Source: a candidate division WOR-3 bacterium
Lineage (GTDB): Bacteria > Hydrothermota > Hydrothermia > UBA1063
Direction: 5' to 3'
Assembly (NCBI GenBank): GCA_039803545.1
Contig: JBDRYS010000001.1
Span: 251,866 to 315,865, forward strand
DNA length: 64,000 nt
Part shown: positions 4,584 to 39,841 of the stretch, piece after piece
Position numbering within the stretch: the stretch's first letter is position 1
Layout of the letters: each line of letters begins with the position of its first letter
Translations under genes and position numbers: made by a program
The notes under the pieces: generated by a model
Told to the model about the DNA's origin: nothing
Databases searched by the model: none
Seen by the model: the letters and a program-made list of their open reading frames with translations, nothing else

Positions 4584-5259
4584 TTTTTATCCCCCTGTTT
4601 AAAAGTTCCTGGTAAAGTTCCTTCCAGTTTTTGCATTCAACACCAAAGTGGATTGCATCCATTCCCACATTCTTCGCCCCTTGCACATCGTTAGCATAGG
4701 AATCTCCTACAAAAATTGCATCCTTTGGGCTTATCCCCAGTCTTTTTAAAGTTTCTTCAAAGATTTTAACATTTGGTTTTCCAAAGCCCAGTTCTTCAGA
4801 GGTCACAATCGCTTCAAAAATATCAATTATGCCGAGTTTTCTCAAGATTGGTTCGATAATTTCATTGTCGATGTTTGAGATTATGGCTAACCTAAAACCG
4901 AGTGATTTCAGTTTTAAAAGGGTTTCTACTGCGTCGGGAAAAGGTTCAGTAAATTCTTCATGGTATTTTAAGTAGAGTTCCCTAAAGGTTTCAAGGTGTT
5001 TAGGCGTTATGTTAATGTTTTTTGATTTAAGAAATTTTTCCACTGCTCTTGTATAAGCGTTAGAGAGATTTTCCCACCTTTCATGTCCAGTTTTAAGAAC
5101 CTCTTTTATTTCGGCCTTTAAAAATTGAAACATTTCTTCAGGAGTTGACGGTATGTTAAACATGTTGATGAATTCCTTATAGAATGCGAGGTGAAGCTTA
5201 TCATCAGATTCATCGGTCACTATGGTTCCACCAAAATCAAAGATCAGGACTTTTTTCAT
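4567..5259 (-). CDS. HAD-superfamily hydrolase (subfamily IA)
   Basis: Cytosolic phosphatase-like enzyme of 230 aa. Motif I is FDFGGTIVTDE with nucleophile Asp8; the usual second Asp (DxD) is Gly here, as in DFGGT/DLGGV-type members of the family. Motif II is AIISNIDNE, motif III Lys is in GFGKPN, and motif IV is VGDSYANDVQGA. The cap domain is the four-helix type between motifs I and II (about residues 18-95). It overlaps topA by 23 bp and the GNAT-like gene by 17 bp, which indicates translational coupling. Because the second motif-I Asp is missing, ordinary phosphomonoesterase activity is less certain than family membership. Confidence 0.85.
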   Translation of the reverse strand: MKKVLIFDFGGTIVTDESDDKLHLAFYKEFINMFNIPSTPEEMFQFLKAEIKEVLKTGHERWENLSNAYTRAVEKFLKSKNINITPKHLETFRELYLKYHEEFTEPFPDAVETLLKLKSLGFRLAIISNIDNEIIEPILRKLGIIDIFEAIVTSEELGFGKPNVKIFEETLKRLGISPKDAIFVGDSYANDVQGAKNVGMDAIHFGVECKNWKELYQELLNRGIKNGGNN

Positions 5260-7555
5260 CCCTTTCCTCCTGTTCTATTTTGTGTTTGCAATGAGGACAT
5301 TCGAGATAGGTTTTCCCTTTTTTATTTTTCTTTTCGAGCATTATGGGGTATCCGCATTGCGGACATTTCTTGTCCACAGGCTTATATTGTGTAATGAATT
5401 TACATTTTGGATAGTTACTGCATCCGTAAAAAACTTTACCTTTCGGCCCCTTCTTTTCAACGATTTCACCATCACATTCTGGACACTTTATTCCCAGGGT
5501 ATAGGGTAGAGTGCCTTTACATTTTGGATAGTCGATGCATCGATAATATTTACCTTTTTTACCCTCTACTAAGATCATCGGCTTCTGACATATCGGGCAT
5601 TTTTTATCTGTAACTTCACTTGCTTCTGCGGGTCTTGTGTATTTGCATTCAGGGTATCTTGAGCAAGCGTAAAACTTTCCGTATTTGCTCCACTTCAAAA
5701 GCAAAGGTGCACCGCAAAGGGGACATACCTCTTCGGTCTTCTGGAGTTCTTCTTTAATCTCCTTTATATTATCTTCAAAGGATTTTAAGTCTTTGCTGAA
5801 CTCTGAGTAGAAATTTTTTAGTACGTCCAAAGCTTTTTTAGTGCCGTTTTCGATTTCATCCAGCTCTTCTTCCATTTTGGCGGTGAATTTTACTTCAAAG
5901 ATATCTCTAAAACGGGAGACCAGAATGTCATTCACTTGAAGGCCCAGTTCAGTAGGAACAAGATATCCCTTTTCTTTTTTGATATATTTTCTTTCGTAGA
6001 GGGTTTCGAGGGTAGGTGCGTAGGTGGAGGGTCTCCCTATGCCGAGGTGTTCCATTGTTCTTATTAGTGAGGCTTCGGTGTATCTTGGCGGAGGCTCGGT
6101 CTGCTCGATTTTATAGTATGCATCAATTATATCAAGCAGTTCACCCTTTGTAAGTTCTGGAATATCCTCATATTGGGGAATTTCACCAAGAATTCTATAA
6201 AATCCTTCGAAGACTAATTTTTTCCCTCTTGCAATGAAGGTGAAACCATTAACCTCTAAATTTGCTTCTTTCGCCTCTTCTCGTGCATAGCTCCCCTGAG
6301 AGGCTATAGCTCTCTTCCATATGAGGCTATAAAGTTTTTGAAAATCACCCTCTATTTTTCCTGTAAGAGACTCAGGTGTTAATTCGGGATGGGTTGGTCT
6401 TATGGCTTCGTGAGCTCCCTGTACCAATTTACCTCCTGTTTCGTGGTTTATTGGTGATGGTGGTAAGTATTCAGGTCCGTAGATTTCTTTTATGAAAGAT
6501 CTTATAGCCGTTACCGCTTTTTCAGAGAGTCTCAGTGAGTCGGTTCTCATATATGTTATTAATCCGAGATTTCTTCCATCGATTTCGACACCTTCATAAA
6601 GCTTTTGGGCTATGGACATGGTCTTACCAGGACTGAATTTATATCTTTTTGATGCTTCCTGCTGAAGAGTCGAGGTTTTCAAGGGAGGATAAGGTTTCAC
6701 TTGTAATAATCTCTTTTCAAAAGATGACACAATGGCTTTTTTGCCCTTAAGTGAGTTTATTATCTCATCAGCTTTTTCTTTACTTTTTATCGGATCTTCT
6801 GTCTTAAGCGTTGCTTCAAAGGTTTTACCGTTTTTTGAAAGCAAGATTTTGATGACGTAATAGGTTTCCTTTTTAAAGGCTTGCCTTTCCCTTTCTCTTT
6901 CACAGATAAGTCTTAAGGCAACGGTTTGGACTCTACCTGCAGATAAACCCTTTCTTATTGTTTTCCAAAGCAGAGGACTTACAAGGTATCCCACTAATCT
7001 ATCGAGAATTCTGCGGGCCTTCTGAGCTTCTACCTTGTTTTCGTCAATATCTCCTGCGTTTTGAATTGCTTTTATGATTTCATCTCTTGTTATTTCAAAG
7101 AAAAGTGCTCTCTTAATTACCTTATTTTTTGCCTTTTTCTCAATTTCTTCCTTTATGTGCTTCGCTATTGCCTCACCTTCCCTATCGGGATCACTGCCTA
7201 TGTAGATTTCTTCTGCTTCCTGAGATTTCTGTTGTATTTGTTTTACTACCTCTCTCTTTTCTGGAAGTACTATAATTTTAGGCTCGAATCCTGCCTTTAT
7301 ATCGACACCTAAGGTATTTTCCGGGAGGTCTTTAATATGGCCCTTTGAGGCAATAACTTCGAATTCTCTGCCAAGGTAATTTTTAATGGTCTTAGCCTTT
7401 GTAGGGGATTCCACTATTAATAGTTTCTTTGCACCTATTTGGGCCTTTCCTGCCTCAATAGGATCGCTTTTCCCTTCCTTTTTCTCAGCCTTTTGCTTGG
7501 AAACGGATTTCGATGTTTTTTCGCCAGATTTTTCTGATTTTTTCTTTTCGGGCAT
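5237..7555 (-). CDS. topA: DNA topoisomerase I (type IA)
   Basis: Relaxes negative supercoils through a transient 5'-phosphotyrosine bond; 772 aa. A Lys/Ser-rich tail of about 42 residues precedes the TOPRIM domain (LLIVESPTKAKTIKNYLG, then GSDPDREGEAIA). The catalytic tyrosine is Tyr335 in ITYMRTDS. Four C-terminal zinc ribbons are visible, starting CPLCG, CPICQ, CPECD and CPQCG, each with a second C-x4-5-C pair (for example CSRYPEC). No Shine-Dalgarno site lies near the ATG; instead TAAAAT (7562-7567 on the + strand) ends 6 nt before it, so the message may be leaderless. HAD and GNAT-like genes follow with overlaps. Confidence 0.97.
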   Translation of the reverse strand: MPEKKKSEKSGEKTSKSVSKQKAEKKEGKSDPIEAGKAQIGAKKLLIVESPTKAKTIKNYLGREFEVIASKGHIKDLPENTLGVDIKAGFEPKIIVLPEKREVVKQIQQKSQEAEEIYIGSDPDREGEAIAKHIKEEIEKKAKNKVIKRALFFEITRDEIIKAIQNAGDIDENKVEAQKARRILDRLVGYLVSPLLWKTIRKGLSAGRVQTVALRLICERERERQAFKKETYYVIKILLSKNGKTFEATLKTEDPIKSKEKADEIINSLKGKKAIVSSFEKRLLQVKPYPPLKTSTLQQEASKRYKFSPGKTMSIAQKLYEGVEIDGRNLGLITYMRTDSLRLSEKAVTAIRSFIKEIYGPEYLPPSPINHETGGKLVQGAHEAIRPTHPELTPESLTGKIEGDFQKLYSLIWKRAIASQGSYAREEAKEANLEVNGFTFIARGKKLVFEGFYRILGEIPQYEDIPELTKGELLDIIDAYYKIEQTEPPPRYTEASLIRTMEHLGIGRPSTYAPTLETLYERKYIKKEKGYLVPTELGLQVNDILVSRFRDIFEVKFTAKMEEELDEIENGTKKALDVLKNFYSEFSKDLKSFEDNIKEIKEELQKTEEVCPLCGAPLLLKWSKYGKFYACSRYPECKYTRPAEASEVTDKKCPICQKPMILVEGKKGKYYRCIDYPKCKGTLPYTLGIKCPECDGEIVEKKGPKGKVFYGCSNYPKCKFITQYKPVDKKCPQCGYPIMLEKKNKKGKTYLECPHCKHKIEQEERDEKSPDL

Positions 7556-11758: not shown

Positions 11759-12106
11759 GTGTTTGAACAATATAGCCGGGTAAAAAGTTGTATAAATTGC
11801 GGCACGGAAATTAACGCTAAAGCGGAAATCTGCCTATATGTGGTGTAGGCAACCTTTAGCGAGTCCCAATCAGGTAAGAACAGGCTGAAAGCTGCATTGC
11901 TTGCACTTTTTTGTGAGGCAGGTGCTCATAAAGTCTATCTTGGGCAAACTTAATGGGGTTTAGTATAATTACTTTTCTGTTGAACTCTAATACCTGCCAT
12001 TATAGCGTTCGCAGAGTTTATAATACTACTTTCAATGGGTGATGGGAAGTTCCACGAAAATATGCATGATAAATGCCTTCCCTTCTGGGAAAAGGCAAGG
12101 ATATAG
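11759..12106 (+). pseudogene. Decayed zinc-ribbon + TM2-domain membrane protein
   Basis: A GAGGAGG site (11746-11752) is followed 6 nt later by GTG, giving FEQYSRVKSCINCGTEINAKAEIC; the frame then reaches a stop at 11843-11845. Shifting by one base directly after that Cys restores CPICGVGN, the second zinc knuckle. Further on, another frame reads KNRLKAALLALF, GAHKVYLGQ, the start of a TM2 domain (normally GaHrFYLGk), then stops. A last segment, PAIIAFAEFIILLSMGDGKF, matches the second TM2 helix and its short tail, ending at 12106. At least one frameshift and several stops are needed, so this is a pseudogene of a CxxC-x16-CxxC + TM2 protein. Confidence 0.75.
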
Positions 12107-12266
12107 GTGAATTTTTTTATATTGGCTTCCTATTTGTTCTCGGTGTGCAGGCTTAGTTTGAAAGTTTTGGTACAAAAGTTAGAAGAGTTCTCCCAAATTT
12201 TTGCCCCCACCTGCTTAAGCGATTAACATGTTTAGTCCCGAACTCTGGTTATCACGCTCTTTTGTA
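12107..12266. other. Intergenic stretch between TM2 remnant and tRNA promoter
   Basis: No gene, hairpin terminator or repeat could be supported in this stretch. Confidence 0.4.
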
Positions 12267-12295
12267 TTGAATATTCGCGAATCATTAATTATAAT
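12267..12295 (+). promoter_or_regulatory. Promoter of the tRNA-Cys/tRNA-Leu unit
   Basis: TTGAAT (12267-12272), a 17-nt spacer and a perfect TATAAT (12290-12295). Mature tRNA-Cys begins 10 nt after the -10. The spacer contains the palindrome ATTCGCGAAT. Confidence 0.85.
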
Positions 12296-12305
12296 TTTCT
12301 AACAC

Positions 12306-12379
12306 GGCGACGTAGCCAAGCGGCCTAAGGCGGCGGTTTGCAAAACCGCTATTCCCCGGTTCAAATCCGGGCGTCGCCT
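12306..12379 (+). tRNA. tRNA-Cys (anticodon GCA)
   Basis: Acceptor stem GGCGACG pairs with CGTCGCC. The anticodon stem-loop GCGGT-TTGCAAA-ACCGC carries GCA, and the T-loop TTCAAAT follows CCCGG. The discriminator is U, the known identity element for cysteine tRNA. CCA is not encoded and must be added after transcription. Confidence 0.97.
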
Positions 12380-12381
12380 TT

Positions 12382-12465
12382 GCCGGGGTGGCGGAAAGGC
12401 AGACGCAGGGGACTTAAAATCCCCTGGGACAAAATCCCGTGCGGGTTCAAGTCCCGCCCCCGGCA
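12382..12465 (+). tRNA. tRNA-Leu (anticodon TAA)
   Basis: Type II tRNA with acceptor GCCGGGG pairing with CCCCGGC and discriminator A73. The anticodon stem-loop GGGGA-CTTAAAA-TCCCC carries TAA, and a long variable arm (GGGAC/ATCCC region) is present. It lies 2 nt after tRNA-Cys. CCA is not encoded. The next coding start is only 10 nt downstream. Confidence 0.97.
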
Positions 12466-12475
12466 CTTTAGAAAA

Positions 12476-12739
12476 ATGCTACTTCAAAGAACGAGTAAAA
12501 ATGTTTTTATATCAATCCTTATAGGCCTAATTTTTGGGAGTATAATAGGGAAAGTTTTATTTCACATTTTTCCAGAAAGCCCCGCCAGAAAGATAGTTTT
12601 TGAGGAAATTAGAATTGGGATTCCACAAATAAGCTTGAATCTTGGAATTTTGGGTTTTAGTTTTTCTTTTTACTTTGTGATTAGTATTTTTTCCGTAATT
12701 TTCGCTCTTTTTGTGATTTACTTGCTGATTAAGCTCTGA
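12476..12739 (+). CDS. Small DUF4321-like membrane protein
   Basis: Protein of 87 aa with two hydrophobic helices: VFISILIGLIFGSIIGKVLF near the N-terminus and a C-terminal helix through residues 60-85. The GSIIGK turn and the ISLNLGILGFSFSFYF segment resemble the DUF4321 family of small bacterial membrane proteins of unknown function. The ATG lies 10 nt after the 3' end of tRNA-Leu and has no SD, so it is probably transcribed from the tRNA promoter and released by tRNA 3' processing. A longer frame from 12338 runs through both tRNAs and was not accepted. It overlaps the 3' end of the convergent aminotransferase gene by 11 bp. Confidence 0.7.
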   Translation: MLLQRTSKNVFISILIGLIFGSIIGKVLFHIFPESPARKIVFEEIRIGIPQISLNLGILGFSFSFYFVISIFSVIFALFVIYLLIKL

Positions 12740-13934
12740 GTCCTCTCTCTTTTCTCAGCTTTTCAAGACCATCGGCGATACGGTTTGATGCCTCTATTAA
12801 ATTCTCTAAGGAGTTTGCGAAGGAGATTCTAACATGGTTTTTGCCATTTTCACCGAAGGCATCACCGGGAAGTAGAGCTACTTTATAGTTTTCAAGTAAA
12901 TATTTTGCAAACTCTGCAGAGTCTATGTTAACTTTGATTTCCGGGAAGAAATAAAAGGCACCCTTTGGTTTGGAAATGTGGATACCTTCTACGTCTTTTA
13001 AAATGCTATATATTTTGTCCCTTCTTTTCTGGAACTCATTGACCATTCTGGAGATGAATTCTTCTCCCTCTTTTAGGGCAACAATGCCAGCCCTTTGTAT
13101 GAACTCTGGAACGCAGGAGAAGGAATTTTGAATGAGTTTGACAACAGCACCGACCAGTTCCTTTGGTAAAACCCCGTATCCCAATCTGAATCCCGTCATC
13201 GCATAGGTTTTCGAAAAGGCGTCAATAAGGATAATATTATGGTGGCTATCTGTGTAGTTTAAAATGCTGTTATGCTCCTCTCCATCAAAGTAAATTCTCG
13301 AGTAGACTTCGTCAGAGATGATGAGCAGGTTATTTTCGTCTGCGATCTTAACAATTTCTTTTAATTCTTCTGGAGTATGTATCATCCCCGTTGGGTTGGA
13401 TGGCGTGTTTATAATTATGCAGGTAGTCTTTCTATCTATTTTTGTTCTTAAATCGTCGAAATCAATTGCAAAGTTTCTAGATTTATCCAATTTATAAGGA
13501 ACGGGGATTGCTCCAATAAAGCTTATCAAGCTTTTATAGGAAAGATATCCCGGATCCGGATAGAGCACTTTTTCCCCTGGGTTGACTGCTGCAAGAAGCG
13601 CGAAGAGGATCATGGGCTTTGCGCCTGGGGTAATAACGATTTGCTCCGGTTCAACCTTTATTTTTCTAAAACTCCTCTCGTACTCAGCTATTGCCTTTCT
13701 GAGCTCAATTATTCCTTGCGCTGTAGTGTAGTGGGTTTCACCTCGGCGCAGAGATTCAATAAGGGCGTTAATGGAAGATTCGGGAGGATTAAAATCAGGT
13801 TCTCCTATTTCCAGGTGTATGACTTTTTCACCCTGCTTCTCAAGTTCTTTCGCTTTTCCAAGGACCGCAAAAGAGGCCGATTCCTCAATCCTTTCAATAA
13901 TTTTTGCCTGAACGAGTTTATTATCCTTTATCAT
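12729..13934 (-). CDS. Class I PLP-dependent aminotransferase (aspartate aminotransferase-like)
   Basis: Cytosolic transaminase of fold type I, 401 aa, near the usual length. Visible residues: Asn180 in NTPSNPTG, Asp208 and Tyr211 in ISDEVYSRI, Schiff-base Lys242 in DAFSKTYAMTG, and Arg250. The N-terminal IGEPDFNPP motif is typical of the Igamma aspartate/alanine aminotransferases. It is the last gene of an operon with the KOW protein (5 bp gap) and the DUF2723 protein. Aspartate with 2-oxoglutarate is the likely pair, but related enzymes use alanine or aromatic residues, so substrate is inferred. Confidence 0.92.
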   Translation of the reverse strand: MIKDNKLVQAKIIERIEESASFAVLGKAKELEKQGEKVIHLEIGEPDFNPPESSINALIESLRRGETHYTTAQGIIELRKAIAEYERSFRKIKVEPEQIVITPGAKPMILFALLAAVNPGEKVLYPDPGYLSYKSLISFIGAIPVPYKLDKSRNFAIDFDDLRTKIDRKTTCIIINTPSNPTGMIHTPEELKEIVKIADENNLLIISDEVYSRIYFDGEEHNSILNYTDSHHNIILIDAFSKTYAMTGFRLGYGVLPKELVGAVVKLIQNSFSCVPEFIQRAGIVALKEGEEFISRMVNEFQKRRDKIYSILKDVEGIHISKPKGAFYFFPEIKVNIDSAEFAKYLLENYKVALLPGDAFGENGKNHVRISFANSLENLIEASNRIADGLEKLRKERGLRA

Positions 13935-13939
13935 TTCCT

Positions 13940-15067
13940 TTATTCCTCAATTATCTCAACGTTAGCTCTTGGGACGATGACCCTTTCACCATTATCAAAT
14001 TCTAATTCCAGCACCCTTACCTTTGCCTCGGTTTCAATAATCTGAAGCTCTGGTGGTAGGGCAGTTACCTTTCCAATTCTACCGAAGTAAGGTTCTCTAA
14101 TTACCCTGACAATTGTACCTATGGCTAATCCCTGACTGAGCTCTTCCTCGCTCTCTTCAGAAACTACCTGTCCTTCCGGAATTGCTACAATCACTTCTGG
14201 CCTTATGACTCCAGCTCTGATTTGGGTTGCACCATTCATTGAGGCTTTTTTCCCGTTCAGCTCAAGGAAAAGTTCGAAGGTTCTCTTTGCCATTGGAAGC
14301 TTTCCAAATCCTTCTGTAATCATCAACGTTATTCCCTTTTGTTCATTACCTGTTATTGCCACTCCAATGTCATATCCGAGAAAATCTTTTAAATTCTTAT
14401 CATCTATTGCCCCAACTACGACACCCTTTACTCCGCATTTTACAGCTTCTCTAAGTGCTTCGGAGGTAACGTAACTACCACCTATAAGAATTTTTCCTTT
14501 CATTTCGGGTGTTATCTTTTCCTTTGTTAATTCTTCGTCAGGAGATTTTGCAACAACCAGGATTTCCCCAATAGTTTCTCCCCCGATTCCGAAAATTCCC
14601 TGTATGAAACTTGCTGTAGTCTCTACAACCACTCCTTCATTAGGAATTACCTCTACCACCGTTCCATCGATATAAGCGTTTACAGTTATCGGGATGGGAG
14701 GTTCTCTGAGAATTACCTGTCCTGTGATATTGGAAATGCTCTCTATGTATCCATCTACTGGTGAAGTAACGGTATTTTTGAAGAGCCCGAAAAAGCTCTT
14801 AGATTCAGCAATTGGTTCTCCCTTTTTAACAGGGTCATTTACCTTTTTAATCATTACACTGTTTATTTCCTGGGGTGGGATTGAGAGAAGACCTGCGACA
14901 TTTATAGGCTGAACATTTCCAGGTAGCTCGGTCTTAGCAACCACTGTTTCCGCTGATACCTTATCGCCCACCTTTACAACTACTTCACCCGGCAAAGGTA
15001 ATCTTCTCTCTTTTCTCAGAACTGTTTTTCTTGTAACTTTCAAACCAGGCGTATAAGCATGAGCCAT
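13940..15067 (-). CDS. Barrel-sandwich (RnfC/lipoyl-like) and KOW domain protein, function unknown
   Basis: Protein of 375 aa with an AGGAGGT site directly before the ATG. The N-terminus (RRLPLPGEVVVKVGDKVSAE) resembles the RnfC-type barrel-sandwich hybrid, and a second such unit follows (TVTSPVDGYIESISNITGQV, about residues 97-116). No lipoyl- or biotin-accepting lysine motif is evident. The middle (GKILIGGSYVTSEALREAV, then GVKGVVVGAI) looks alpha/beta and is unassigned. The C-terminal 65 residues form a KOW-like module (GTIVRVIREPYFGRIGKV). It has no signal peptide. It sits between the DUF2723 glycosyltransferase-like protein and an aminotransferase in one operon. I do not know its role. 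Confidence 0.7.
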   Translation of the reverse strand: MAHAYTPGLKVTRKTVLRKERRLPLPGEVVVKVGDKVSAETVVAKTELPGNVQPINVAGLLSIPPQEINSVMIKKVNDPVKKGEPIAESKSFFGLFKNTVTSPVDGYIESISNITGQVILREPPIPITVNAYIDGTVVEVIPNEGVVVETTASFIQGIFGIGGETIGEILVVAKSPDEELTKEKITPEMKGKILIGGSYVTSEALREAVKCGVKGVVVGAIDDKNLKDFLGYDIGVAITGNEQKGITLMITEGFGKLPMAKRTFELFLELNGKKASMNGATQIRAGVIRPEVIVAIPEGQVVSEESEEELSQGLAIGTIVRVIREPYFGRIGKVTALPPELQIIETEAKVRVLELEFDNGERVIVPRANVEIIEE

Positions 15068-15076
15068 ATTTACCTC

Positions 15077-17905
15077 CTAAAAAATCTTTTGTTTCATTTC
15101 AAGTGCCCATTTATTTGTTGAGTCTACCTTTAACAAATTATCTAATGCTTTCTGGGCCTTGTCTTTTTGCCCCTTCTTTAAATAAAGTTCCACCAGTTCC
15201 ATATAAGACTCTGTATCCTGTGGGTTAAGTTGCACTGCCACTTCGAAGTTTTGTATCGCTTCGTCGATATTTCCTGATGCTTTCAAAACCTTGCCTTTCA
15301 GACTGTAGAATGGTGCGTATTGAACCTTTTCATTGATTTCGTCAATCGCCTCGATAGCTTTTTGATAATCACCAATCATATACGAGAGGTTTGCAATTTT
15401 ATAGTATATGTAAGGAAGTTCTCTGGTTATTGCATATTCGTCTAATTTGATCTGCTTGAGGAAGGCCCTTGCAAAATCCCATTCGTCCCTTGCCTCTTTA
15501 TACATTCCCTTATATTCATAGTAGAGTGCTGTTCTAAAGGTAACACTGGCATAATTTCTTATCATCCTTTCCTGGTTATCGTCCTTGTAAACTTTCGGGT
15601 TGAAGACGCCCCTGTACCTGTAAGTCTCCGTAGGTGGAATCTTCTCACCGTATTTTTCTATGTATTCATTATAAGGAAGGCCGTCCCTAAGAAGGTAAAT
15701 GGTTCTTTCAATATCGATACCTTCTTTGATTTCAGGCGGAGTTTCCTGTTTTGTTTTCATAACCCTCATTGCCATACCTTCGAGCCTTAGGTATTGGTTC
15801 CAACCATCATAGTGTTCTGGCGATACAGTCATGGAGAAAAAGATGGGCATTTTGAAGGTGTCAGCCTTTTCAATTACTTCTTTTGCAAATTCTTCGGCTG
15901 AAGCCAAGTAAATTCTCGGGATTTTAAAATCAACATTGGGAAAGTCGTATCCCTGGAACACCTTTGAGGGGTTATAAGTCACATAATCTGTTGTTTTATA
16001 ACCTGCTGATGTTGCAATTATATCTCTTATCATAAGGTCCACGAGATACATTATTTTTCCATCTAAGGTAACGAAAACGGGAGGCAGCTTTTTAATAACA
16101 TCATCAGAAAAGCTTATCGGTGCCCCCTGATGCTTTATTTGGTATATGTGCCAGTTGGTATTTAAAAGGCTCATGTTTGCGATGATAACATTAGTTCCTA
16201 TTCCCAGTACCGTCTGGTCTGCCCAAAGTGGGAAGGTATCGTTATCGCCATTAGTAAATAGGACGCATTTTTCCTTAGAGCCTGGTGAAATTAGCAAGTT
16301 GTATGCATAATCTTCTGCAAGATAATTCCCAGAACGATCAAGGATTGGGTAGAAAACGTAAATTTGACCAAAGACGGCTCCTGCAGTTACTAAGATCCCA
16401 AATAAAGCTGGCACAAGGACTTTCTTTTTAAGATTCTCGTATATAAGTCTTAAGATTTCGAACAATCCGAAACCTGCGTAAAGGGCGAAAAATATGTAAG
16501 CCCCAGAGTAGAAGTAGTCCCTGTCACGGACTTCTGTAGGATTCAAAGGATTTACTGGCTGAGAAGGGGAATCCTTCAGATTAAGGTACCAAAGAAAACC
16601 AAAGCTTAAAATGAGGAAGGTAAATCCAACCAGTGCCAAGGTTTTTCTATCCTTAGAGATGTGGGAAATTATTCCAAAGATTCCTAACACCGTGATGGGA
16701 ATCAAAAGATGTAGATACTGCCAGCTGAAGTAGACCCAATAGTTCCTAATCTGATCAAAGAACGGGATTTTCCTTGGTAACATGTTCATTGGACCGTATT
16801 GCTTTCTTGTAAGGACATCCATAAAGGCTTTGAAAGTCGATGGGTCTGCTTCGTTGATATATGGATTGTGAATTGCTCGTAATACCATTGTTATTTCAAG
16901 TAGGAAGCCGAGGAACATAAAGAGAACGGCAAGGCCTTTCCAGTCCTGATAAAGCTTTGCTTCATAGTATAACAAGGCAGTTATCAGGAGTGCCCCACCA
17001 ATTATAAGGTAGGGGTTTTTGGCAAATAGGCCCACAAGGTAAATCAAAGCAAGAATGATCCATATTATTTCATAAGGGATGTCAGATCCTTTAAATTTTT
17101 TGAAAACTTCGGAGGTTAGATAATACAGCATCAAGATAATTCCTAATATTAATACAGCAATACCAAGGGTTCCAGGTTCGTAAGCTATTTGAAGTGATGC
17201 GAGTAGAAAGAATGTAATCCCAAGAAGTCCTAAGGTATTTTTATCCCAGTACAGTTCCCTTTTTGCGATAAAAGTGAAGAGAAGCAATGCCGGGAAAAAG
17301 GCAAAAGAGGTTAAATGGAATCCAATTCCAAGGGTCAAAAGATATCCTGAAAAAATAAGATATCTCGTTGATGCAGGGTCATCCTTTTCTTTATACCATT
17401 TCAATGCAAGCCAGGTCAGCATTACTATGATAAAATTCGCAGGTGTATAGGTTTCGGCTTCAATTGAGTTTTCCCAGTTTACTTTAGCTAATACAGCCAT
17501 TAAGCCCGCAAATATTCCTGCAATGTGAGCAAAAATAGGAGGTGTCTCTTTGAATAGCATTCTAACGAGGTCGTACAGTATTAGGTAAACGAAGCTGGCT
17601 GTTAGGGCACCTGTAGTCATTGCGATTAGCGTTATTTTTAATACCGTGTTTACCGGATAACTTCCCGGATGAAAGAGCTTGTATAGTGTATCGAGGGGGA
17701 GTGGAAGGATGGTCATAAACCTTCCTAATAAAACGTAAAGTGGTGTACCCGGCGGGTGTGGAACTCCAAATATTACCGAACAAGCAAGGAATTCACCAAC
17801 ATCCCAGAATACTATCGTGGGAGCTGTGGTGAGAAAGAATATGAACCAGGCAAACAGTCCTACAATAGCAAACACAAGCCACTTTACTTTATCTTCTTTT
17901 AGCAT
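15077..17905 (-). CDS. DUF2723 multi-pass membrane protein with C-terminal TPR repeats
   Basis: Large inner-membrane protein, 942 aa. The N-terminal half has about ten or more hydrophobic helices. The family signature is seen near residue 35: FWDVGEFLACS followed by GVPHPPGTPLYVLLG. DUF2723 proteins are GT-C-like and related to protein O-mannosyltransferases (TMEM260), so transfer of a sugar from a lipid carrier outside the membrane is plausible. The last 130 residues hold TPR units (YYKIANLSYMIGDYQKAIEA; SYMELVELYLKKGQKDKAQKA). An SD (GGAGG) and a near-consensus promoter precede it. It heads the operon with the KOW protein and aminotransferase. Confidence 0.88.
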   Translation of the reverse strand: MLKEDKVKWLVFAIVGLFAWFIFFLTTAPTIVFWDVGEFLACSVIFGVPHPPGTPLYVLLGRFMTILPLPLDTLYKLFHPGSYPVNTVLKITLIAMTTGALTASFVYLILYDLVRMLFKETPPIFAHIAGIFAGLMAVLAKVNWENSIEAETYTPANFIIVMLTWLALKWYKEKDDPASTRYLIFSGYLLTLGIGFHLTSFAFFPALLLFTFIAKRELYWDKNTLGLLGITFFLLASLQIAYEPGTLGIAVLILGIILMLYYLTSEVFKKFKGSDIPYEIIWIILALIYLVGLFAKNPYLIIGGALLITALLYYEAKLYQDWKGLAVLFMFLGFLLEITMVLRAIHNPYINEADPSTFKAFMDVLTRKQYGPMNMLPRKIPFFDQIRNYWVYFSWQYLHLLIPITVLGIFGIISHISKDRKTLALVGFTFLILSFGFLWYLNLKDSPSQPVNPLNPTEVRDRDYFYSGAYIFFALYAGFGLFEILRLIYENLKKKVLVPALFGILVTAGAVFGQIYVFYPILDRSGNYLAEDYAYNLLISPGSKEKCVLFTNGDNDTFPLWADQTVLGIGTNVIIANMSLLNTNWHIYQIKHQGAPISFSDDVIKKLPPVFVTLDGKIMYLVDLMIRDIIATSAGYKTTDYVTYNPSKVFQGYDFPNVDFKIPRIYLASAEEFAKEVIEKADTFKMPIFFSMTVSPEHYDGWNQYLRLEGMAMRVMKTKQETPPEIKEGIDIERTIYLLRDGLPYNEYIEKYGEKIPPTETYRYRGVFNPKVYKDDNQERMIRNYASVTFRTALYYEYKGMYKEARDEWDFARAFLKQIKLDEYAITRELPYIYYKIANLSYMIGDYQKAIEAIDEINEKVQYAPFYSLKGKVLKASGNIDEAIQNFEVAVQLNPQDTESYMELVELYLKKGQKDKAQKALDNLLKVDSTNKWALEMKQKIF

Positions 17906-17927
17906 TACGATCCTCCGCGTTGCTTAA

Positions 17928-17956
17928 ATTATAGATTTAATCGCTTATCCAGTCAA
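17928..17956 (-). promoter_or_regulatory. Promoter of the DUF2723-KOW-aminotransferase operon
   Basis: On the minus strand TTGACT (17951-17956), a 17-nt spacer and TATAAT (17928-17933). It gives a short leader containing GGAGG before the ATG at 17905. It is arranged back-to-back with the promoter of the PAS/GGDEF gene, the two -35 boxes being about 16 nt apart. Confidence 0.85.
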
Positions 17957-17972: not shown

Positions 17973-18001
17973 TTGATAAAACAAAAATGGCTTGTTATAA
18001 T
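17973..18001 (+). promoter_or_regulatory. Promoter giving a leaderless PAS/GGDEF mRNA
   Basis: TTGATA (17973-17978), 17-nt spacer, TATAAT (17996-18001). The seventh base after the -10 is the A of ATG 18008, so the transcript would begin at the start codon. An in-frame ATG at 17987 lies inside the spacer and so cannot be in this mRNA. Confidence 0.85.
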
Positions 18002-18007
18002 TTAATC

Positions 18008-19261
18008 ATGTTTGAAAGGGAATTGTATAAAACTGCTTTTGGTACCAACCCCCTTCCCATGGTCCTCACGGACTTTAATGGGAATATTCTCGATGCTTCG
18101 GTTGGTTTCGCATTGCTTTTTGACGTTCATAGGGATGACCTCATCGGTTTGAATTTGAAAGAGATAATCCAAATTGAAATTGTTGAAGACCTTGCAATTG
18201 AAACGAGTATAAAAGGGGAGTTTTATAAAGTTTTCTCCCAGAAATACGAAGTTGAGGGAATCACGTTTTTTGTTTTTTCCTTTTATAAAGTGGAGCAACT
18301 CAGACAGAGTCCCAGTAGCTCCCTTCTTGTTAATTTAAGGGATTTACTTAAAGTCTCTCTCGAGGTTTCAACCTTTCCTGAGTTTATCGCACATACGTTA
18401 CCTATGCTTTGCGAAATCTTTGGCGCTTCTAACGCAATGCTTTTGAAGAGAAGCAAGACGGAACTTTCGAGATTTTTTATAGTTTTCGGAACGGATGAAT
18501 CTTTCAAACAGCTTAGGGATAGAGTTCAGGTTAAAGTTGAGGATGAAACTTATCTAAGCGTCGGAATGCCAATTATTGCAAATGGGGAATACAAATGGGA
18601 AAGCCTTAAAGAACTAATTATTGAAGCGGGATATGTCTCTGGGTGGGCTATTCCCTTTGGTTTTGAAGAGGATTTTGTCGATTCTTTATGCGTTTTATTC
18701 TTTGATAAATTTAGAGAACCAGAACCAGAAGAGCACAATCTTCTCGTTTTCCTCTCTTACTATTATTCCCTCGTTTATCAAAAGGCCGAGTTTAAAAAGC
18801 AATACGAGGCATTATCTTACAAAGACCTAATTAGTCAGACTTACAGCGAAGTGCTGATTAGAGAGATTCTGGATGTGCAATGTGAACAGGCAAAACGGTA
18901 TGGAATAACCTTCTCGGTTTTAATGATTCGGGTTGAGAATTATGAAAAACTTGTCAGTATTTATGGGAATTATCAAGTAGAATCTACAATGTCAAATATT
19001 GCTAAGGCGTTGAAAGAGAATTTAAGAAGAGCAGATATTGTTGGAAGACTGTCTAAAAACTCTTTTATTGTGATTCTGCCCTTTACAAATTCTACTGGGA
19101 CCGATGTGGTTTATCAGAGGGTTTTGAACATCCTGAGGTCTGGGATGTTCCCACCTTGTAAAAATGTTAAGTTCTCTGCGAGTATCACAAACTACATGGA
19201 AGGTGACAACCAAAAAGTAATAATTGAGAGATTACAGGATTTATTGAGGCCTGTTCTCTGA
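18008..19261 (+). CDS. PAS-GAF-degenerate GGDEF signalling protein
   Basis: Cytosolic sensor-type protein of 417 aa. Residues about 10-95 form a PAS-like domain (PMVLTDFNGNILDASVGFALLF). About 105-265 are GAF-like (MLCEIFGASNAMLLKRSK). About 285-410 align with a diguanylate cyclase fold (AKRYGITFSVLMIRVENYEKL; ALKENLRRADIVGRLSKNSFIVILP). The GGDEF signature is replaced by LSKNSF and the metal-binding Asp of the DxD-F region by RVENYE, so c-di-GMP synthesis is unlikely; nucleotide binding or a structural role is possible. The start is fixed by the promoter geometry, as no SD exists. It stands alone before the M24 peptidase, which has its own promoter. Confidence 0.8.
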   Translation: MFERELYKTAFGTNPLPMVLTDFNGNILDASVGFALLFDVHRDDLIGLNLKEIIQIEIVEDLAIETSIKGEFYKVFSQKYEVEGITFFVFSFYKVEQLRQSPSSSLLVNLRDLLKVSLEVSTFPEFIAHTLPMLCEIFGASNAMLLKRSKTELSRFFIVFGTDESFKQLRDRVQVKVEDETYLSVGMPIIANGEYKWESLKELIIEAGYVSGWAIPFGFEEDFVDSLCVLFFDKFREPEPEEHNLLVFLSYYYSLVYQKAEFKKQYEALSYKDLISQTYSEVLIREILDVQCEQAKRYGITFSVLMIRVENYEKLVSIYGNYQVESTMSNIAKALKENLRRADIVGRLSKNSFIVILPFTNSTGTDVVYQRVLNILRSGMFPPCKNVKFSASITNYMEGDNQKVIIERLQDLLRPVL

Positions 19262-19264
19262 TTT

Positions 19265-19293
19265 TTGTTTATTCAAAAGCTTAGATTTAATAT
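19265..19293 (+). promoter_or_regulatory. Promoter giving a leaderless M24 peptidase mRNA
   Basis: TTGTTT (19265-19270), 17-nt spacer, TAATAT (19288-19293), then six bases and the ATG at 19300. Start point and start codon coincide. There is no SD. Confidence 0.75.
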
Positions 19294-19299
19294 TATCGC

Positions 19300-20505
19300 A
19301 TGAATCCTGAAAGAATTGATCTTTTAATGGAGAAGTATGGTGTTGATTGGGTAGTTGTTGAGGGAAGCGGATCCGCTACTTCCCTCTTCTATCTTACAAG
19401 GGGTGCGCATATCGGTTCGGGCATCTTCCTTAAGGAAAGAGGTAAATCTCCTATTCTTATTCACATTGATATGGAGCGCGATAATGTGAAGCATCTTGCT
19501 GACTTTAGTCTCGTTTCTTTCTCCTCCTTGAATCTTAGAGACTTAAACCAAATTAAGGATCCAGTGGAACGGGGTTTTGCCTATTATAAGAGGATCTTCG
19601 AGAGATTTGGGGTAAGGGGAAAAGTCTATTTCCAGGGCGAAAGGTTCAATAACGTCTCACTGGAAGTTTTTAAGAGAATTTCTTCAGAGCTAAGTGGCAT
19701 TCAGTTTCCACCAATTAAGGAAGACATCATTTATATTGCAAGGCGGCAGAAGACAGAAGAGGAAATAGAAAGGTTGATGTCTGTTGCCACAAGAACCCAA
19801 GAAGCTTTTCTGGTTTTGATTGACTACTTGAAAAAGTTAGACCGTTCCAGTGGATACCTTGAGGATAATGGTAGGCCTGTTACAATTGGTGCAGCAAGGG
19901 TTTTTCTTAGAAATGAATTAATAAAAAGAGGGCTGATTGACTCTTCTGGCATGATTATAGCCCAGGGTAGAGATGGTGGAGTTCCCCATAATCACGGTAA
20001 TGATGAAGAGCCCATTAAAGTTGGCACTCCCATCGTATTTGATATTTACCCGAGAGAGTATGGGGGCGGCTTTTATTTCGATATGACAAGAACCTATTCC
20101 TTTGGGGAACCATCTGAGGATGTAATCGATGCCTTTGAGCAGGTTAGATATATTCAGGAAGAGGCTGTGAAACAAGCGGTAGAGGGTAAGGCTTGTAAGG
20201 AGTTAGAAGAACTTGTCGTAAACTATTTTGAGTCAAAGGGCCATGAGACGCTGAGGAAAAATCCTCAGGCTCAGGAGGGATATGTTCATAGCCTTGGTCA
20301 CGGTGTAGGTCTTGATGTACATGAACTCCCCGTTATAAATTTAAACTCTGAACACACCCTTGAAAAGGGTGATGTTTTTACCATTGAACCAGGGTTGTAT
20401 TATCCTTCTAAGGGGTTTGGAATTAGAATTGAGGACACCCTATACATTGATAAAGAGGGAAGGACCGTTAATTTGACCTTCGTACCAAAGGACCTTGTCT
20501 TATAA
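19300..20505 (+). CDS. M24-family metallopeptidase (Xaa-Pro aminopeptidase-like)
   Basis: Cytosolic two-metal aminopeptidase, 401 aa, with creatinase-like N-domain (about 1-145) and pita-bread catalytic domain. All five metal ligands are present: Asp248 (VFDIYP), Asp261 (FDMTRT), His334 (LGHGVG), Glu363 (TIEPGLY) and Glu378 (IRIEDT). His330 and His341 match the usual supporting histidines. Xaa-Pro dipeptides or peptides are the likely substrates; M24 members of this type also include prolidases. It is predicted to be translated from a leaderless mRNA and is followed after 15 nt by PEP carboxykinase. Confidence 0.92.
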   Translation: MNPERIDLLMEKYGVDWVVVEGSGSATSLFYLTRGAHIGSGIFLKERGKSPILIHIDMERDNVKHLADFSLVSFSSLNLRDLNQIKDPVERGFAYYKRIFERFGVRGKVYFQGERFNNVSLEVFKRISSELSGIQFPPIKEDIIYIARRQKTEEEIERLMSVATRTQEAFLVLIDYLKKLDRSSGYLEDNGRPVTIGAARVFLRNELIKRGLIDSSGMIIAQGRDGGVPHNHGNDEEPIKVGTPIVFDIYPREYGGGFYFDMTRTYSFGEPSEDVIDAFEQVRYIQEEAVKQAVEGKACKELEELVVNYFESKGHETLRKNPQAQEGYVHSLGHGVGLDVHELPVINLNSEHTLEKGDVFTIEPGLYYPSKGFGIRIEDTLYIDKEGRTVNLTFVPKDLVL

Positions 20506-20520
20506 AAAAAGGAGACAGAG

Positions 20521-39181: not shown

Positions 39182-39841
39182 ATGTTCTTTCAGGATTTAA
39201 TTCCAGTTAGAGTCATTAAAAGGGAGAAAAGATTCAGGCTTTATGTCGAAGTTAACGGAAATCTGGAATTGGCGTACTTGCCAAATTCCGGTAGGCTTGG
39301 AGAACTTATTTACCCGGGAGCAGAGGTTTATGTTGCTTCTAAGGGCAATGCTAACAGAAAAACGAAGTACGAGGCAGTTCTTGCAAAGTATGGTAACATT
39401 TTCGTTTCTATAAATGCCCACCTTGCCAACGATCTGTTCTTGGAAAATATCGAAAAAATGCCCTTTACTGCAAAAGAGATCAAGCGTGAGTTTACTTTTC
39501 TTGATTCACGTTTCGACTTTCTTATCAATAATGAAATTCTAATTGAAGTTAAATCTTGCACTTTGGTCAAAAATTCGGTAGGTTTATTCCCCGATGCACC
39601 GACAATAAGGGGTGCCAAGCATTTGAAGACCCTTCTGCAATGGCCTGGTAAAAAGGGGCTTGTTTTTGTGATTCAGCGAGAAGATGCAAAGTATATGTCA
39701 GCTAACTTTGAAATGGATGAAGACTTTGGCAGGAATTATCTCGATGTTCTTAAAAAGGCGGACTATATATTGGCCTTTACTACGAAGGTCTCCCCTGAAG
39801 GCATCTTCTTCAAAGAGTTTGTTCCGATTTTAGGAGTGTAA
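39182..39841 (+). CDS. sfsA: SfsA-family protein (sugar fermentation stimulation protein homologue)
   Basis: Protein of 219 aa with an OB-like N-terminal domain (YLPNSGRLGELIYPG) and a PD-(D/E)xK-like nuclease fold. The family motif is EILIEVKSCTLVKNSVGLFP followed by DAPTIRGAKHLKTL. E. coli SfsA was named for effects on maltose use, and the nuclease-like fold suggests nucleic-acid binding, so true function is unsettled. It lies 11 nt upstream of the aldehyde oxidoreductase genes and is probably the first gene of that transcript. Confidence 0.93.
   Translation: MFFQDLIPVRVIKREKRFRLYVEVNGNLELAYLPNSGRLGELIYPGAEVYVASKGNANRKTKYEAVLAKYGNIFVSINAHLANDLFLENIEKMPFTAKEIKREFTFLDSRFDFLINNEILIEVKSCTLVKNSVGLFPDAPTIRGAKHLKTLLQWPGKKGLVFVIQREDAKYMSANFEMDEDFGRNYLDVLKKADYILAFTTKVSPEGIFFKEFVPILGV

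Follow-up and report, generated by a model that had tools for sequence, protein, structure and literature searches.

Two adjacent genes and their flanking regions

The window, a 64,000-nucleotide stretch of a candidate division WOR-3 genome, contains two consecutive genes on the forward strand, one for a GGDEF-domain protein (gene 1) and one for an M24-family metallopeptidase (gene 2), each with a predicted promoter immediately upstream (Table 1). The original prediction had read these regions as TTGATA-N17-TATAAT-N6-ATG 18008 and TTGTTT-N17-TAATAT-N6-ATG 19300, with no Shine-Dalgarno (SD) site at either gene. Both readings were correct to the base, and none of the SD-like motifs GGAG, GAGG, AGGA or GGGG was found at positions -16 to -4 of either start codon. 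At both genes, the distance from the -10 element to the ATG falls within 5-7 nt, the -35 element lies at a spacing of 16-18 bp, SD is absent and the start codon is ATG, the combination taken here as characteristic of a leaderless gene.

Table 1. Features of the two genes, their putative promoters and their neighbours (positions are those of the window)
Feature	Position	Strand	Remark
Divergent gene	15077-17905	-	shares 102-bp intergenic region with gene 1
GGAGG Shine-Dalgarno, divergent gene	17912-17916	-	leadered contrast within the 102-bp intergenic region
-10 TATAAT, divergent gene	17928-17933	-	22 nt ahead of its ATG; sequence and promoter scan
-35 TTGACT, divergent gene	17951-17956	-	17-nt spacer; sequence and promoter scan
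-35 TTGATA, gene 1	17973-17978	+	TTGATA or TTGCTA at equivalent site in G001, G002, G003
17-nt spacer, gene 1 promoter	17979-17995	+	read from sequence
In-frame ATG upstream of gene 1 start (longest ORF)	17987-17989	+	not kept in G001 or G003; unlikely start
TG of extended -10 (TGnTATAAT), gene 1	17993-17994	+	in G003; missing from G001, G002
-10 TATAAT, gene 1	17996-18001	+	identical across four congeners
Six-base gap TTAATC, -10 to ATG 18008	18002-18007	+	length kept, letters not
Gene 1, GGDEF-domain protein, 417 aa from ATG 18008	18008-19261	+	predicted leaderless
-35 TTGTTT, gene 2	19265-19270	+	same spacing: TTGTTT in G002, TTGTTA in G001, TTGTCA in G003
17-nt spacer, gene 2 promoter	19271-19287	+	read from sequence
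-10 TAATAT, gene 2	19288-19293	+	N6 to ATG in every relative compared
Six-base gap TATCGC, -10 to ATG 19300	19294-19299	+	read from sequence
Gene 2, M24-family metallopeptidase (Xaa-Pro peptidase-like), 401 aa	19300-20505	+	predicted leaderless
AGGAG Shine-Dalgarno, PEPCK-like gene (ATG 20521)	20510-20514	+	operon-internal, SD-started contrast

The promoter of gene 1 matches 11 of the 12 consensus positions, in addition to the TG of the extended -10 element. Its N17, TATAAT, N6 and ATG are kept in the congeners G001, G002 and G003, with different letters in the spacer and the discriminator; across the four congeners the six-base gap reads TTAATC, TTGAAT, TTCTTT and TCTTTC.

The promoter of gene 2 is weak, with two mismatches to TATAAT in its TAATAT and three to TTGACA in its TTGTTT, and it fell below the threshold of the consensus promoter scan of the region. 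We took it as real because it is kept in relatives. The -10 element is TAATAT in this genome (G000) and G002, TAAAAT in G001, TATAAT in G003 and TAAAAT in G004, a member of the sister genus, and is followed by N6 in all five. TTG is found at the 17-base spacing in G000, G001, G002 and G003, and the -35 element of G004 is weak. Spacer and discriminator letters have turned over between these relatives with N6 unchanged, and such fixed distances across replaced sequence are expected of a promoter tied to its start codon. Given this weak consensus, and since no terminator was found between gene 1 and gene 2, the gene 1 transcript may extend through gene 2 as well.

Genes with SD sequences flank the pair on both sides, so that SD-led and apparently leaderless genes adjoin. 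Elsewhere in the window, genes at 5237-7555 (reverse strand) and 39182-39841 (forward strand) are further candidates, with TAAAAT at -12, no SD and no good -35 element.

The -12 hexamer across the genus

Genes were called with a purpose-written program whose score depends solely on coding hexamers and the type of start codon, which keeps upstream motifs from biasing the starts. A gene was counted as operon-leading when it was divergent or when its same-strand neighbour was 60 bp or more away. The sample comprised 464 kb of the genome (the window and twenty further stretches of 20 kb each) and was supplemented by whole-genome pattern counts. The count of -10 offsets that the original prediction had proposed gave, in this sample, a single peak at -12: TATAAT with at most one mismatch is found there in 20 of 147 operon-leading genes, against a background of 2.24 per offset at -90 to -17 (P ~5e-13). 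The peak is confined to one offset, with 20 genes at -12, six at -13, none at -11 and a maximum of six anywhere at -90 to -17. Among operon-internal genes, 3/190 carry the signal when a stricter form of the motif is used. After background subtraction, about 12-16% of the operon-leading genes in the genus are estimated to carry the signal, which at around one in seven would not be the dominant mode.

The same analysis of congeners placed a -10 element at -12 in 11 of 86 leading genes (P 1.3e-6). E. coli, taken through the identical pipeline, had no peak and 0/97 leading genes at -12, and plasmid MP1 of D. radiodurans, a species with known leaderless genes, did show the peak, with TAnnnT there in 7/77, against 0.61 expected (P 4e-6). 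Of 178 genes that lead an operon or are loosely spaced, 12 had the motif with its -35 element, TTG-N20-TAnnnT, at -12, versus 0.44 expected from other offsets. Counts made independently of annotation gave the same spacing. Indeed, TTG-N20-TAnnAT-N6-ATG is present 56 times in the whole genome, the N10 version 14 times and the reversed pattern 5 times; the N6/N10 counts are 60/11, 61/16 and 53/13 in congeners and 54/11 in the sister genus, and a gap scan of the 464-kb sample peaked at a gap of 6. TATAAT-N6-ATG was counted 53 times in the whole genome versus 7 for its reverse, but reversed-pattern controls inflate enrichment because TATAAT is itself common, and offset controls were preferred.

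Pooling the genus and family gave 33 leading genes with a -10 element at -12 and 224 other leading genes. TTG lies exactly at -35 in 16/33 of the former (0-3 at neighbouring offsets) and 5/224 of the latter, while an SD motif precedes 1/33 and 85/224, respectively (Fisher P 1.5e-5). The base at -1 is a pyrimidine in 27 of the 33 genes, and a pyrimidine is expected immediately upstream of a transcription start; the start codons of the same genes are ATG (31) and GTG (2), with no TTG. On this evidence the -12 hexamer appears to act like a promoter, being coupled to a -35 element, anticorrelated with SD and limited to genes that need a promoter of their own. No functional theme was obvious in the leaderless set; 19 of its genes were sampled, and 18 of these had Pfam matches (for example UvrB, MutS, MetRS-like, CdaA-like, asparaginase and C25 peptidase).

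SD motifs precede 38% of the leading and 53% of the internal genes in this genome. The 3' end of the 16S rRNA is canonical (...GGATCACCTCCTTT), as read from the 3' part of the gene at a contig end, and an S1-like protein is encoded that scores 520.7 bits to rpsA, under the curated cut-off of 577. The presence of all three points to leaderless initiation as a second mode and not a replacement.

Divergent pairs of predicted leaderless genes were also seen. At L075:13127-13184, two genes (12053-13126 and 13185-14192) lie 58 bp apart, both predicted to be leaderless, and their -35 elements overlap within the palindrome TTGAAATTTCAA. Similar pairs, 79 and 129 bp apart, are found in L065.

Predicted mode of initiation and its alternatives

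Very probably, both genes are expressed from a sigma-70 promoter with a -10 element ending six bases before the ATG, and their mRNAs are leaderless and devoid of SD. The housekeeping (sigma-70 type) RNA polymerase would begin the transcript on the A of the ATG, or within about 1 nt of it; with a gap of six, RNA polymerase ordinarily initiates on the A. The 5'-terminal AUG would then be recognised by a 70S ribosome or an initiator-tRNA complex, which is the general leaderless route. In the genus, this would be a stable minority mode for the heads of transcription units, next to SD initiation, which most operon-internal genes use. The DNA itself shows the geometry, its conservation, the coupling to a -35 element and the mutual exclusion with SD, and, together with the null result in E. 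coli, these support the original reading of the arrangement as that of leaderless transcription. The start point and the route of translation we infer from established knowledge of leaderless genes.

Transcription could instead begin a few bases ahead of the ATG and leave a leader of 1-5 nt. Gaps between the -10 element and the ATG are indeed broader in other families, at about 7-11 with a mode near 10 among the full-length matches listed for family f6, and at 6-9 in family f9, but the genus of the window has a sharply defined gap of six, as seen in the counts at -11 to -13, and such a short leader is unlikely here. A transcription start displaced from the ATG by one or two bases, or an extra upstream promoter that yields a leadered mRNA, is conceivable as well.

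It is very doubtful that the TA-rich hexamer serves translation, as an unstructured or S1-binding AU-rich leader in transcripts that start further upstream. Such a role would fit with the S1-like protein encoded in the genome, and in some phyla a bias towards A and U between -20 and -10 has already been interpreted either as S1 sites or as leaderless signals (PMC5397173). However, a translation element has no need of a TTG 17 bp upstream or of placement to the exact base, and operon-internal genes, which also need translation signals, are nearly devoid of the -12 hexamer.

Chance is still harder to defend, although TATAAT-like hexamers are common in an AT-rich genome (40% GC), two of which might happen to fall at -12, and a general promoter scan of the region gave 7 sites against 4.2 expected. 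That scan ignores position relative to the start codon, and the one-offset peak, the -35 element at exactly 17 bp, the SD exclusion and the conservation in several species all disfavour coincidence, which we regard as already refuted, statistically for the gene set and by conservation for gene 1 and gene 2. Finally, ATG 17987 is in frame with gene 1 and would give the longest ORF (424 aa), with TATAAT inside the gene, but it is hardly credible as the true start: it has no SD ahead of it, has no counterpart in G001 and lies outside the reading frame in G003, where the open frame has no Met ahead of MFEK, the -35 and -10 elements are retained at the gene 1 position in 4/4 species, and the motif-blind gene caller chooses 18008.

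ATG 17987 could mislead longest-ORF annotation and bury the promoter within gene 1. It is an example of how starts can be misassigned by a gene finder that looks for an SD.

Known systems and other families

Leaderless transcripts are reportedly common in the translational landscape of mycobacteria, as seen by RNA-seq and ribosome profiling. Those transcripts belong to Actinobacteria and were followed by these two methods, whereas here we have sequence only. The groups with leaderless mRNAs named in the original prediction (Actinobacteria, Deinococcus and archaea) made too short a list, as an earlier survey had already predicted leaderless genes across numerous bacterial phyla and placed the highest proportions in Deinococcus-Thermus and Actinobacteria (PMC3160421). 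The arrangement described here resembles the TA-led genes of Zheng et al. 2011 (PMC3160421), in its TA-like signal, which in those genes lies some 10 bp ahead of the start, and in its minority share, and the medium-GC genomes of that study show TAtaaT, as here. The same study covered 953 genomes, and the leaderless phyla that it names include no fitting uncultured phylum (PMC3160421).

In D. radiodurans, a -10 element adjoining the ORF was shown to act as a promoter (PMC12340547). The likeness to Deinococcus-Thermus lies in a TAnnnT that ends 6-7 bp ahead of the start, the lack of SD, and a class of genes with ribosome-binding sites alongside (PMC12340547). In contrast to that group, the -10 element is TATAAT or TAAAAT here and half of the sites have a proper -35 element at 17 bp; the share is lower in this genus and higher in family f9, and the mode is predicted here from sequence. 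A search of the available literature combining leaderless transcription with WOR-3 returned no report, and a broader search covering several uncultured phyla had none with leaderless genes among its ten best matches. These negatives argue only weakly for novelty. The mechanism is known and the lineage, as far as these searches indicate, is apparently unreported for it, so that it would be an addition to the lineages with systematic leaderless transcription.

The samples from other families were small, with 10-65 leading genes each, and the percentages that follow are to be read as leads. In G005, an order-mate from the same class, and in family f4, about 20% of the leading genes carry the signal, partly via offsets adjoining -12. 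In family f9, the strict motif was found at 57% (G025) and 50% (G032) of the leading genes, and SD at 6% and 18%, respectively. Inspection by eye of G025 (L105-L114) placed TATAAT or TAGAAT 6-9 bases upstream of the start in most of its 34 leading genes, with no clear TTG -35 element in the promoters of this family (G025 L105-L114 and G032 L172-L178). Leaderless or near-leaderless initiation looks dominant in f9. In family f6, whole-genome counts of TTG-N20-TAnnAT gave N10 as commoner than N6 (17 vs 5 in G012, 18 vs 7 in G021), suggesting that transcripts in this family carry leaders of a few nucleotides.

Phylum-wide counts of exact TATAAT (N6 vs N9-14) miss the TAGAAT boxes of f9 and the longer gaps of f6; they were dropped and replaced by gene-based and -35-coupled counts. 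A list of TAAAAT offsets in one f6 genome was too noisy without the -35 element.

Whether the initiation of leading genes is split by family within one class, with a gap of 6 in a minority of genes here, a majority share in f9 and short leaders in f6, we consider evenly balanced. If these differences are true, the class would form a natural series for the replacement of SD by leaderless initiation or the reverse, and would allow a compact comparison for a shift that is usually argued from very distant groups.

Across the phylum, the signal appears to range from nil to a majority of the leading genes. The widespread use in the lineage that was originally suggested holds in so far as the mode is steady within the genus; it is too strong for a minority of the leading genes there and for a phylum so uneven. 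No signal was detected among the leading genes sampled from family f13 (G041), and about 25% of those from family f21 (G063), which belongs to another part of the phylum, carry it, many of them with a TTGAC -35 element.
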